From an uncultured Chitinophagaceae bacterium (GTDB lineage: Bacteria; Bacteroidota; Bacteroidia; Chitinophagales; Chitinophagaceae): a DNA stretch of 33,684 nt. A model generated the notes under the pieces. The model did not search any database, was not told the DNA's origin, and saw nothing but the letters and a program-made list of their open reading frames with translations. Positions 155-7,654 of this stretch are shown one piece after another. The DNA is taken from NCBI GenBank assembly GCA_938017685.1, contig CALIIL010000067.1:1-33684 (forward strand). Reading direction: 5' to 3'. The first letter of the stretch is position 1; every line of letters begins with the position of its first letter. The position numbers were made by a program, and so were the translations under genes.

Positions 155-230
155 GCTGATAACAAGCTAAATTAGCCATTAAACGAAACAATGGGGGGCA
201 CTTGTTACAATTATCCCGTTATCCGTCAGC
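155..230. repeat. Inverted-repeat region upstream of the toxin gene
   Basis: Two nested inverted repeats can be read here: TAACAAG at 160-166 pairs with CTTGTTA at 201-207, and GCTGA at 155-159 pairs with TCAGC at 226-230. A perfect 10-bp palindrome ATCACGTGAT lies just before it at 126-135. No gene is visible in 1-296. The arrangement of an AAC-containing arm and a GTT-containing arm recalls a cassette recombination site, but that is an inference from shape only. Confidence 0.35.
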
Positions 231-272
231 TAGAATAAAATAAATTTAACAGTTTCCTAAAGAAGAAACTCG

Positions 273-280
273 TATATTTG
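273..280 (+). promoter_or_regulatory. Bacteroidota -7 box upstream of the HigB-like toxin gene
   Basis: TATATTTG matches the TAnnTTTG -7 consensus of the primary sigma factor in Bacteroidota. It would start transcription about 10 bases before the ATG at 297, giving a very short leader. No clean TTTG -33 box was found at the expected distance, so the call is moderate. Confidence 0.5.
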
Positions 281-296
281 TATGGAATATTAATTA

Positions 297-641
297 ATGG
301 ACGATTACAAATTCAAGGTTGTATTTCTGGAAGAGGCAAATCAGTTTTTAGGCAAACTCGACAAAAAATCAAGAGATAAAATTATCTACAACATTTGGAA
401 ATCGAGAAGCACAAATGACAAAGTATTATTTAAGAAACTTCAAGGCGAAATTTGGGAATTTAGAACCTTATTCAACAAAAAATATTTTAGATTGTTTGCA
501 TTTTGGGATAAAGATGATAAGACGGAAACGGTTGTTATTGGAACACACGGTTTGATAAAAAAGACTGACAAAATCTCAAAAAACGAAATCATAAAAGCAG
601 ACAGAATTAGAGAAGATTACTTTAAAAATAAAAAGAAATGA
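297..641 (+). CDS. HigB-like toxin (phage Gp49-like / RelE superfamily)
   Basis: This 114-residue basic protein resembles the Gp49-like HigB toxins, ribosome-dependent mRNA interferases of the RelE fold. Family-like stretches are the N-terminal FLEEANQFLGKLDKKSRDKI helix, then KLQGEIWEFRTLFNKKYFRLFAFW, which corresponds to the central strands (roughly residues 49-71), and a Lys-rich C-terminal helix. The next gene begins inside its stop codon (ATGA overlap at 638-641) and encodes an XRE regulator. The toxin-first order is typical of higBA. A likely promoter box lies at 273-280. Cleavage activity is inferred from the family. No truncation is seen. Confidence 0.85.
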   Translation: MDDYKFKVVFLEEANQFLGKLDKKSRDKIIYNIWKSRSTNDKVLFKKLQGEIWEFRTLFNKKYFRLFAFWDKDDKTETVVIGTHGLIKKTDKISKNEIIKADRIREDYFKNKKK

Positions 642-949
642 AAACATATAGTTTAGAAGAAGTAACTGATAAATATATCGGCAAGAAAGGAACAAAAAAA
701 CGTGACGAATTTGAAAACGAACTTCGTTTAGATTTATTAGGTCAAACGATTAAACAAGTTCGGCTTGAAAGAAATTTGACGCAGGCACAATTGGGCGAAC
801 TCGTTGGTGTAAAAAAAGCACAGATTTCAAAAATTGAAAACAGCTTGACAGATGCAAGATTTGAAACTATTTTGAAAGTTTTTAAAGCATTGAAAGCTGA
901 AATAAACTTTAACGTGAAGCTAGAAAATCAATTGATACAACTGACCTAA
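638..949 (+). CDS. HigA-like XRE-family antitoxin
   Basis: The product has 103 residues with a helix-turn-helix of the XRE/Cro type at about residues 36-90; the signature is LERNLTQAQLGELVGVKKAQ followed by ISKIEN. In higBA modules this protein binds the toxin and represses the shared promoter. Its start codon overlaps the toxin stop (ATGA), so translation is probably coupled. The N-terminal 35 residues (LEEVTDKYIGKKGTKKRDEF) probably contact the toxin, as in related antitoxins; that is inference. It is followed by a hairpin-rich non-coding stretch rather than by another gene of an operon. Confidence 0.87.
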   Translation: MKTYSLEEVTDKYIGKKGTKKRDEFENELRLDLLGQTIKQVRLERNLTQAQLGELVGVKKAQISKIENSLTDARFETILKVFKALKAEINFNVKLENQLIQLT

Positions 950-1195
950 AAGGAAGCCGAACGGATAACAAGGGCTGATAAGGAATACGGGCTTCACTCT
1001 AAACCGAAATAATCCGTTTCAAAAAACGCCAAAACTACGCTCTGGTCCGAAGCTTCGGACTTAGGAAAAAATAAAGCAAAAGCGTAGCTTTAGCTAACAA
1101 CATTATAGCTTTGAGATTATGCTCCGTAAGTCCGCACTCCTCAAAGCCAAAAAGTTGCCCATAATATAAATCAACATTGAGAATAATCGAATAAA
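950..1195. repeat. Hairpin-rich intergenic DNA, cassette-boundary-like
   Basis: No gene is seen in these 246 bases. Several inverted repeats are: GAAGCC 953-958 with GGCTTC 990-995; ACGGAT 961-966 with ATCCGT 1012-1017; the perfect 16-bp palindrome GTCCGAAGCTTCGGAC at 1045-1060, flanked by CTACGCT 1035-1041 and AGCGTAG 1081-1087; and GCTTTGAG 1108-1115 with CTCAAAGC 1140-1147. The last pair sits between GCTAACAAC at about 1093 and AAAGTTGCC at about 1152, an AAC...GTT framing similar to integron attC sites. The 13-mer AAGCCAAAAAGTT at 1144-1156 recurs with one change at 2291-2303. No attC identity is claimed. Confidence 0.45.
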
Positions 1196-2206
1196 ATGGA
1201 ATTTAAGAAGTTCAATTCAATAGAAAACTCATATCAAAAAGGGTTTATCCAATCAATATTTGACAGAGGATTTTCCGAAATAGATTACGTAGTTCAAGAA
1301 AAAACTCACGGAGCTAATTTGAGCATTATTACCAATGGGAAAGAATTAACTTCAGCAAAACGAACCGAACTGATAGCTGATGACGAAAATTTCTACAATT
1401 CAAAATCCGTTCTCGAAAAATATAAAAATAAGGTCATTGAATTATTTCAACACCTTTCGAACGATTTTGAATTAAATACTCTCACTATTTTTGGTGAATT
1501 AATTGGTGGTGACTATCCTCACAAAGATGTGCTCATTAACAAAGAGGCTAAATTGGTTCAGAGAGGAATTTATTATAACCCAGAAAATGTTTTTTTTGCA
1601 TTTGACATACTAATAAATTGCGAGGAATATCTAGGCGTAGAAATGGCAAATGAACTTTTTGAAAAATTTAGATTTATTTACGCAGATACTCTTTTTAAAG
1701 GGAATTTAGGCGAATGTTTGGAGTATCCAAATAAATTTCCGAGTACTATACCTGCTAAATTTGGATTACCTGAACTTGATGGAAATATTTGTGAAGGTGT
1801 TATTATTCGACCTATAAAACCATTGTTTTTTAATAGTGGTTCGAGAATACTAATCAAAAACAAAAACGAGGAATGGTCTGAAAATAATAACTATATCGAT
1901 AAAGAAATACTACGACAACTTTTACACGATGACGAAGAATTGAGCAAAGAGGCAGAAAACCTTTGTCAAGAGGCATACAAATTCATTTCTGCAAATCGAT
2001 TAAACAATGTGATTAGTAAAATTGGCGAATTAAATCCGAAAAAAGATTTCGGTCGAGTATTGGGAATGTTTAACAAGGATATTCTAACAGACTTTCTTAA
2101 AGAAAACCGAGCTGAATATGACGCATTGGAAAAACACGAAAATAAAGCCGTGAATAAATTTGTGAACAAGCACGCAAGCCAATTAGTAGCTGAACATTTT
2201 GCGTAA
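1196..2206 (+). CDS. T4 Rnl2-like RNA ligase
   Basis: The 336-residue product closely parallels phage T4 RNA ligase 2 (334 residues), which seals 3'-OH/5'-phosphate nicks in double-stranded RNA by an ATP-dependent ligase-adenylate, RNA-adenylate route. Nucleotidyltransferase motifs are all visible: motif I KTHGAN with catalytic Lys36, motif III FGE at 99-101, motif IIIa FFAFDIL at about 133-139, motif IV EGVIIRP at 200-206 and motif V ILIKNK at about 218-223. The C-terminal Rnl2 domain is also present; NRLNNVISKIGELNPKKDFG is nearly the T4 sequence. The reading frame is intact and full length, so an active enzyme is likely. It stands alone on the plus strand in a patch with a toxin-antitoxin pair and cassette-like repeats; phage or cassette acquisition is inferred. 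Its biological substrate is unknown. Confidence 0.92.
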   Translation: MEFKKFNSIENSYQKGFIQSIFDRGFSEIDYVVQEKTHGANLSIITNGKELTSAKRTELIADDENFYNSKSVLEKYKNKVIELFQHLSNDFELNTLTIFGELIGGDYPHKDVLINKEAKLVQRGIYYNPENVFFAFDILINCEEYLGVEMANELFEKFRFIYADTLFKGNLGECLEYPNKFPSTIPAKFGLPELDGNICEGVIIRPIKPLFFNSGSRILIKNKNEEWSENNNYIDKEILRQLLHDDEELSKEAENLCQEAYKFISANRLNNVISKIGELNPKKDFGRVLGMFNKDILTDFLKENRAEYDALEKHENKAVNKFVNKHASQLVAEHFA

Positions 2207-2360
2207 AAGTACTATGGGCAAGAACGAATAAGCGCAATAGCAGGAAAAGTGATAAAACGAAAGAAATTGTATAAATTTAAGGTAAGTTATAAGCCGAAAA
2301 GTTAGTATGTGAAAGTCCGCTACTATTCTTATACTAGACCGTTCAAGAACACTATAACCC
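2207..2360. repeat. Downstream flank of the RNA ligase with repeated motif
   Basis: The gap holds a second copy of the AAGCC(A/G)AAAAGTT motif at 2291-2303 and of AAGTCCGC at 2313-2320, both also present in the 950-1195 gap (1144-1156 and 1128-1135). The repetition on both sides of the RNA ligase gene suggests a bounded unit. No gene and no clear terminator were found here. Confidence 0.4.
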
Positions 2361-6259: not shown

Positions 6260-7654
6260 ATGCTTAAATTAATTAAACATGCAAAAAATCAAATTAAGCT
6301 ATATAAGAAAATATTATTCATTACTCACTATGTTATTTACGATTGTTTCGATACAATCCTATGCCAAAAACCTAGTGAATTAATATTGCGCACTGAAACA
6401 ATAGAGTTGCAACCTAATCTAAATGAATTTATTAATACCTCAAGCAACAGTTCTTCTAAATATAAACTGCTAAGTTTTCATACCATTCCTACTGGTGATG
6501 TCAAAGCATCACTAAAAAGTAATGGTGTAGATTTATTAGAATATGTGCCAAACAATAGTTTTATTGTACGTTTTTCTTCATTATTGTCCCCTACTTATTT
6601 ACAAGACAAAAATATCAAAGGAGTATATGATCTTCCACGAGCACTAAAGTTAGATTATAGAATAATACATTGGGATCTACCTCATCATGCTATAGCTGAT
6701 GAGAATAATATAAATGTAGCAATCATAGCTATGAATGGTTTAAATGTAAAAGATTACAGTACATCATTAGAGCAGAATAATATTGTACCTTACGAATACG
6801 GTCAAGACATTCGATTTGCTTATTGCGTTATGAGCCAAGCTCAAGTTGAAGCAGTTGTAAAAATGCCTTGGGTACGATCAATAGAGTTAATCAATGAACC
6901 AGGCAAGCCCAAATCTACAGAGGGGCGCTCACTACAAAAATCTAATATTATAAATAGTGACTTGAGCAATGGACTTTCTTATAATGCTAATGGAGTAAGC
7001 TTGCAAGTAAGAGATGACGGCTTAGTAGGACCACATATTGATTATCAAGGTCGCTTAACCAATCTTACTACAGACGCCACAGGAACGCACGGCGATGGAG
7101 TTGCTGGCGTTATGGGCGGAGCTGGTAACATAGACCCAACGGTTGAAGGTGGAGCATCTGGTGCTGACATATATGTGATAAATTATCAAGCAAATTTTCA
7201 GGATAACACATTGAGCTTACACCAAAACGATGATGTAATGATTACAAACTCATCTTACAGCAATGGCTGTAATGATGGTTATACATCTACCACACAAACG
7301 GTTGATAGACAAATTATAGATAACCCAACCCTGATGCATGTATTCTCAGCGGGGAACTCTAACAACAATGATTGTGGTTACGGCGCAGGAGACCAATGGG
7401 GCAACATGATAGTGTCCAAAAAAGTGTGTAAAGTCCATATTTTAAGTGTTTTTGTGTTGCAATTACAAAAATCAATCTTTTGGATTTTACACACTTTTTT
7501 GGACACTATCCACCGTATAATTGGTATTGGTTTACTACTGCATATGGTTACAGACTTTATAGATTGTTTATTTATGTATAACCAATGTGACGAATGTGCT
7601 ACTGAACCTGCACTACAACCAATTTTACAATCAATTAAAGAATTAGTAAATTAG
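6260..7654 (+). pseudogene. Truncated and frameshifted S8 (subtilisin-like) secreted peptidase
   Basis: The open frame encodes a subtilase prodomain (about residues 40-220) and part of an S8 catalytic domain: the Asp region VRDDGLVGPHIDYQG (near 7013-7018), the His region GTHGDGVAGVMGG (His codon at 7088-7090) and the oxyanion Asn in VFSAGNS (7355-7357). The GTSxAxP catalytic serine and everything beyond are missing: after GDQWGN the frame runs into a 103-bp inverted-repeat element (7408-7510) and unrelated DNA. The N-terminus is also broken. A typical signal peptide, MLFTIVSIQSYA preceded by basic residues, is encoded in another frame from ATG 6279 and stops at about 6383, so one base has been lost or gained near GCCAAAAACC (about 6361-6373). 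Two independent lesions make it a pseudogene. Confidence 0.85.
7408..7510. mobile_element. 103-bp MITE-like element with perfect 25-bp terminal inverted repeats
   Basis: Bases 7408-7432 (beginning GATAGTGTCC and containing six A, then GTGTGTAAA) are the exact reverse complement of 7486-7510. The 53-bp interior is AT-rich and encodes no transposase. The end sequence is of the style seen in IS256-family insertion sequences (GATA...GTGTAAA), so it may be a non-autonomous derivative; that assignment is inference. No target-site duplication is recognisable: the flanks GGGCAACAT and CACCGTATA differ. This suggests deletion of adjacent DNA after insertion, consistent with loss of the protease 3' half. 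Confidence 0.8.

Follow-up and report, generated by a model that had tools for sequence, protein, structure and literature searches.

An Rnl2-type RNA ligase gene as a probable single-gene cassette of an integron-like array in a Chitinophagaceae bacterium

Introduction

What is an RNA ligase of the phage T4 Rnl2 type doing in a bacterial chromosome, just downstream of a toxin-antitoxin gene pair? The question is raised by a contig of an uncultured Chitinophagaceae bacterium, which we analyzed as one stretch of 33,684 nucleotides (the window). The original prediction was that the enzyme could repair RNA cut by toxins or by anti-phage nucleases, or be part of a counter-defence cargo. Our analysis leads to a different answer. 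The ligase gene is very probably a single-gene cassette in an integron-like array, lying beside a separate toxin-antitoxin (TA) cassette and served by an IntI-related tyrosine recombinase. Sequence comparison establishes the cassette ends, the family of sites, an exact unit of transfer, compensatory changes in the site arms and a recombinase beside such sites. The discrete cassette, with its complementary ends and attC-like site, had been overlooked.

Results

The ligase gene appears in the ORF list of the window as an uninterrupted frame of 336 aa. It matches the Pfam families RNA_ligase (PF09414, E 6.5e-20, over the cut-off) and T4_Rnl2_C, the Rnl2-specific C-terminal domain (PF18043, E 3.9e-20, 72.4 bits against a cut-off of 27), and its best solved structure is T4 RNA ligase 2 (2hvq, E 3.2e-30). 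Nucleotidyltransferase motifs I-V, including KxHGxN, are all present (KTHGAN36, KRTEL55, FGEL99, FFAFDI133, EGVIIRP200 and LIKNKN219), confirming that the ligase is complete, as had been claimed. The likeness to T4 RNA ligase 2 and the Rnl2 family, which includes the kinetoplastid editing ligases, consists of motifs I, Ia, III, IIIa, IV and V together with PF18043. The cassette ligase differs from that family in carrying an additional GGxYPH segment after motif III, in sitting alone on a bacterial cassette and in scoring below the NCBIfam equivalog cut-off (TIGR02307, 175.5 against 197.15 bits); because that cut-off is missed, we call it Rnl2-type by domain architecture only. The "long near-identities" to T4 Rnl2 read from the sequence earlier were overstated, as the best identity to a phage homologue is 34% and T4-like phages reach 31-32% (1325 phage records matched).

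Between copies of the cassette the ligase motifs are intact and dN/dS is 0.04-0.17, a sign of strong purifying selection, indicating that the protein is in use. An AlphaFold model of the ligase reached a pLDDT of 48 and was left unused. As judged from the conserved motifs, ATP would adenylate K36, the AMP would go on to a 5'-phosphate, and sealing would follow at a nick that has a 3'-OH; the enzyme probably seals nicks in structured RNA with 5'-phosphate and 3'-OH ends.

We examined the DNA around the ligase gene for the borders of a mobile unit (Table 1). The ligase cassette starts with GTTGCCCATA and ends with TATGGGCAAG, and its ends are inverse-complementary over positions 1155-1166 and 2210-2221 (start GTTGCCCATAATA, end TACTATGGGCAA). 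The TA cassette likewise has ends that are exact inverses of each other over 9 nt, its R'' end having been placed by site homology. The RNase-type toxin module claimed beside the ligase is indeed there, and its organization is of the HigBA type, the gene of a RelE-superfamily toxin being immediately followed, and overlapped, by that of an HTH antitoxin. It resembles TA cassettes of chromosomal integrons, which are also two-gene units with their own leader before the first gene; unlike them, it sits in a non-IntI array. The site that follows the ligase cassette shows no excess folding. This site is the probable distal end of the array, and with a degenerate right-hand site the ligase cassette may no longer be excisable. 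A search of the window against Rfam gave no match, and a scan for promoters and terminators found sites no commoner than in shuffles. Elsewhere in the window, the last ~80 residues of the ORF at 6260-7654 seem to be read in another frame than the peptidase-like part before them, possibly through a frameshift or an assembly error.

Table 1. Features of the cassette region, in positions of the window.
Feature	Position	Strand	Evidence
Toxin-antitoxin gene cassette	218..969	+	GTTATCCGT (218-226) to ACGGATAAC (961-969)
Gp49/HigB-type (RelE superfamily) toxin	297..641	+	PF05973, E 4.4e-13
HTH (Xre/HigA-type) antitoxin	638..949	+	PF01381, E 1.1e-12
attC-like site between both cassettes	961..1156	+	R'' ACGGATAAC (961-969), folded body 970-1153, R' GTT (1154-1156)
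RNA-ligase gene cassette	1154..2221	+	R' GTTGCCCATA (1154-1163) to R'' TATGGGCAA (2213-2221); DNA homology unit with L002, L003 and L007
Rnl2-type RNA ligase ORF, cassette cargo	1196..2206	+	Pfam, structure match, motifs
Degenerate or truncated 3' site after ligase cassette	2222..2360	+	R'' AAC reads AAG; without matching L''/L' arms

The TA and ligase units are separated by a site stretch of ~185 nt (970-1153) that forms a hairpin. Positions 965-1098 are 81% identical to a site on contig G000:C84 of the same genome, which lies one cassette 3' of a recombinase gene, and a blast search of the genome gave 13 matches, representing about a dozen sites. Folded as single-stranded DNA, the window site has a z-score of -3.3 and the C84 copy one of -6.1. 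We then compared the two ends of 20 cassettes, placing the ends by site homology rather than by seeking a match. The 7 bases that follow GTT agree with the complement of the cassette's other end at 6.55 positions on average (14 cassettes exactly), whereas mismatched pairings of ends give 2.89 of 7, and in 100000 permutations a value as high as the observed one never occurred. Similarly, the left and right arms of 33 sites are complementary site by site, to a degree reached in none of 20000 within-genome permutations. The complementary arms point to selection acting on the folded strand, as in attC sites. Each cassette opens with GTTR and about 6 cassette-specific bases, closes with their reverse complement and AAC, and has the hairpin site behind it.

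Searches for sites by simpler means were less informative. A simple attC-like scan was swamped by chance matches, and a k-mer scan found no repeated sites in several relatives (e.g. L048, L049, L054, L062 and L063), so not every recombinase gene has an array that this method can recognize. Among the site copies in the window's own genome, degenerate ones on contig C122 lie near a gene for a PIN-domain protein (PF10130; L081:2899-3333, minus strand). Two contigs, G000:C84 (1-120) and G000:C93 (1-68), end inside the same cassette start, GTTATAGCCAATGTAAAACTTAAATTTTAGTC; this suggests that a duplicated cassette broke the assembly there.

Three other genomes, with the labels Flavobacteriaceae or Maribacter, encode close relatives of the ligase at 83-89% protein identity. 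In blastn comparisons the homology of the window DNA to these genomes (79-88%) begins at 1154-1158 and stops at 2224-2226, and each genome has flanks of its own; the L003 copy starts with GTTACCCATA and ends with TATGGGTAAC. These limits identify the ligase gene, as far as DNA comparison can, as a one-gene cassette that moves horizontally. At cassette-level similarity the ligase is found in 1 of 296 genomes of its own family and is absent from two genomes of the same genus, and so appears to have been acquired recently. The recombinase is present in each of the three genomes that carry the cassette ligase and lacking from three Bacteroidales genomes whose ligase is not on a cassette.

The recombinase of the window's genome is a tyrosine recombinase of 382 aa (G000:C84:995-2143). 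In the assembly, which consists of 178 contigs, no join links the window contig (C67) to C84. Just 3' of the recombinase gene a first cassette starts with GTTATAGGC and ends with GCCTATAAC, and this one cassette with its site stands beside the recombinase on C84. The same-genus genome G478 encodes a recombinase 82% identical to it. DNA homology between the two loci runs through the recombinase gene and stops exactly at CAGAT^GTTA, where the first cassettes differ; from this one genome pair, CAGAT^GTTA appears to mark an attI-like insertion point. The first cassette of G478 (contig C7; L129:6283-7122) encodes a penicillin-binding transpeptidase-domain protein (PF00905) that is class D beta-lactamase-like, and its ends are complementary (GTTAGCACC ... 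GGTGCTAAC). The recombinase would recombine folded single strands of the sites, cutting at GTT, and circular cassettes would be inserted just 3' of its own gene.

In L059, L065 and L053, which belong to the same family as the window, and on a Rufibacter plasmid (L110), the recombinase gene has an array of co-oriented cassettes with sites on its 3' side. On this closed plasmid of Rufibacter tibetensis the array is clean (L110:8943-14538), made of small and mostly hypothetical cassettes, four with exact 9-nt complementary ends. Across the class, a contig end lies within 3 kb of the recombinase in 39 of 73 cases on the 3' side and in 9 of 75 on the 5' side, as expected if a repeat array lies 3' of the gene. 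Matches to the recombinase at E <= 1e-40 occur in 150 of 295 Bacteroidia genomes, a count set by the threshold alone and not by membership of the group. In most of the long recombinases, residues 1 to about 100 form an N-terminal region with no Pfam match.

Discussion

The system shares much with integrons, including chromosomal integrons and CALINs. Both have a tyrosine recombinase by a co-oriented array of mostly single-gene cassettes, although the window array is on a contig other than that of its recombinase. Both have imperfect inverted repeats that fold as single-stranded hairpins with co-varying arms, their structure conserved beyond sequence, and cassettes with complementary ends and a conserved GTT, as at 218-226/961-969 and 1155-1166/2210-2221 of the window. 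An insertion point beside the recombinase gene, here fixed in one genome pair only (C84 and G478), and cargo of TA and resistance type are also common to both. Against this stand the array lying 3' of the recombinase in the same direction, and an N-terminal extension of roughly 60-130 aa in most members of the group. Our literature search, which took in few subscription papers and no preprints, found no description of such a system.

Could this nevertheless be an integron of the ordinary IntI kind, or a CALIN derived from such an integron, with a divergent integrase and standard cassettes? The array logic, folded sites and complementary ends would fit, as would the IntI-like C-terminal 'SPLD' tail of most group recombinases and a TIGR02249 score of 197.8 bits, yet both recombinases that were scored fall under the integron-integrase cut-offs. 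The additional domain of IntI, described as essential for integron function (PMC8138268), is absent from all 27 long recombinases and present in 15 of 15 IntI proteins: residues 186-246 of the integrase structure 2A3V face 18 recombinase residues, and the spacing from KGxKxR to HxLRHS is 62-65 residues in 27/27 group recombinases, against 104-105 in 15/15 IntI and 65-70 in Xer proteins. The tree sets the group recombinases in a clade of their own (support 85), separate from that of IntI (support 100). The cores also depart from the R' GTTRRRY and R'' RYYYAAC of integrons, with GTTR followed by variable bases in 26 of 27 sites and GTTRRRY in 1 of 27 (1 of 19 distinct cores). Canonical IntI was found in 84 of 296 genomes of a phylum sample, one of them, among the matches listed, from the window's class, and a survey with IntegronFinder 2 described integrons as rare in Bacteroidetes, where nothing was reported beyond In0 elements and one complete integron, in Salinibacter (PMC9024848). 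We consider an ordinary IntI integron unlikely. Because the domain and the core, two features that define IntI integrons, are both lacking, we file the system as an integron variant: as read from its genes and sites, it is integron-like in organization and not an IntI integron. Boundaries drawn by another kind of element, such as a MITE or a transposon with inverted ends, hardly come into question. The units do have inverse-complementary ends, as transposons do, but these ends vary between cassettes while matching within each, and the units stand in tandem, co-oriented, on the 3' side of a tyrosine recombinase whose insertion point is fixed. Phage origin, a TA-ligase operon, an IntI integron and a transposon were each rejected.

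The cassette reading also bears on what the ligase does. That the ligase and the TA genes form one RNA-damage and repair module, as the original prediction had it, finds some encouragement in their adjacency and shared orientation, and distant homologues of the ligase do occur in RNA-repair neighbourhoods. We nevertheless give this module very little credence. Toxin and ligase belong to different cassettes, and a recombination site stands between the two, so their adjacency appears to be array neighbourhood rather than a repair operon. The survey of close homologues for recurrent TA, phage or defence genes came back empty: the ligase cassettes of L002, L003 and L007 have different neighbours, none of a toxin, phage or defence family, and the sole PADLOC match beside them is a generic methyltransferase domain. 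Toxins of the RelE/HigB type cut RNA so that one end carries a 5'-OH and the other a 3'-phosphate or cyclic phosphate. Since such ends need end-healing enzymes, since no Pnkp scored over its cut-off in the genome and since the other copies lack a toxin, direct repair of the neighbouring toxin's cuts by an Rnl2-type ligase is unlikely. That the ligase came from a phage and serves as counter-defence cargo against anticodon nucleases is similarly very improbable. T4 uses RNA ligase in tRNA repair, and T4 Rnl2-like ligases are common in phages, but identity reaches 89% among bacterial homologues against the low phage values given above, a scan of viral contigs confirmed no relative and no phage genes adjoin any copy of the ligase cassette. 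Of the earlier idea of cargo, mobility holds, as the copies in Flavobacteriaceae illustrate; nothing here points to a phage origin.

Distant bacterial homologues of the ligase (41-47% identical, from other Bacteroidia) adjoin RlaP, DUF434, a cyclic-phosphate-processing receiver (cREC_REC) and RNase T-type exonucleases, and for this reason a general RNA-repair role, by analogy with these neighbourhoods, is plausible. In contrast to them, the cassette ligase has none of those partners beside it. The likely benefit of the cassette would be the repair of nicked structured RNA, without specific coupling to the toxin.

A remnant of such an array may also lie beside a resistance gene. On the Acinetobacter plasmid pJAT2044 (L107:2967-4988) and on plasmid pHH1107 (L108:6064-8085), tet(X3) is located directly 3' of a gene annotated 'xerD/TnpF', a truncated member of the recombinase group that is 53% identical over 228 aa. 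Behind tet(X3) comes an attC-like site of which the left half is present, with E 1e-5 to a site in L051 and an alignment that starts from CTAAC. In the deltaISCR2-xerD-tet(X3)-res-ISCR2 segments of Acinetobacter plasmids (PMC8635130), tet(X3) is placed like a first cassette after the recombinase; unlike the integron-like arrays, the segment is only a remnant, presently moved by ISCR2. By its position and flanks tet(X3) looks like a captured first cassette, though both end sequences match only partly.

On balance we favour, with less confidence than for the ligase cassette itself, a wider proposal: a second, non-IntI class of integron would be present in roughly half of the species in the Bacteroidia sample, using folded GTTR sites and missed by present integron finders, with a cargo that includes the RNA-ligase and TA cassettes of the window and the tet(X3) segment. 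In its recombinases the N-terminal region might take the place of the IntI-specific domain when sites are recognized. A large gene-shuffling system may thus have gone unnoticed in Bacteroidia. If the proposal is right, a cassette system without the IntI-specific domain would alter the definition of integrons and give a natural point of comparison for the reading of folded DNA by recombinases. It would also account for the movement of accessory genes among Bacteroidota, including an RNA-repair enzyme and a resistance gene found later in Acinetobacter.
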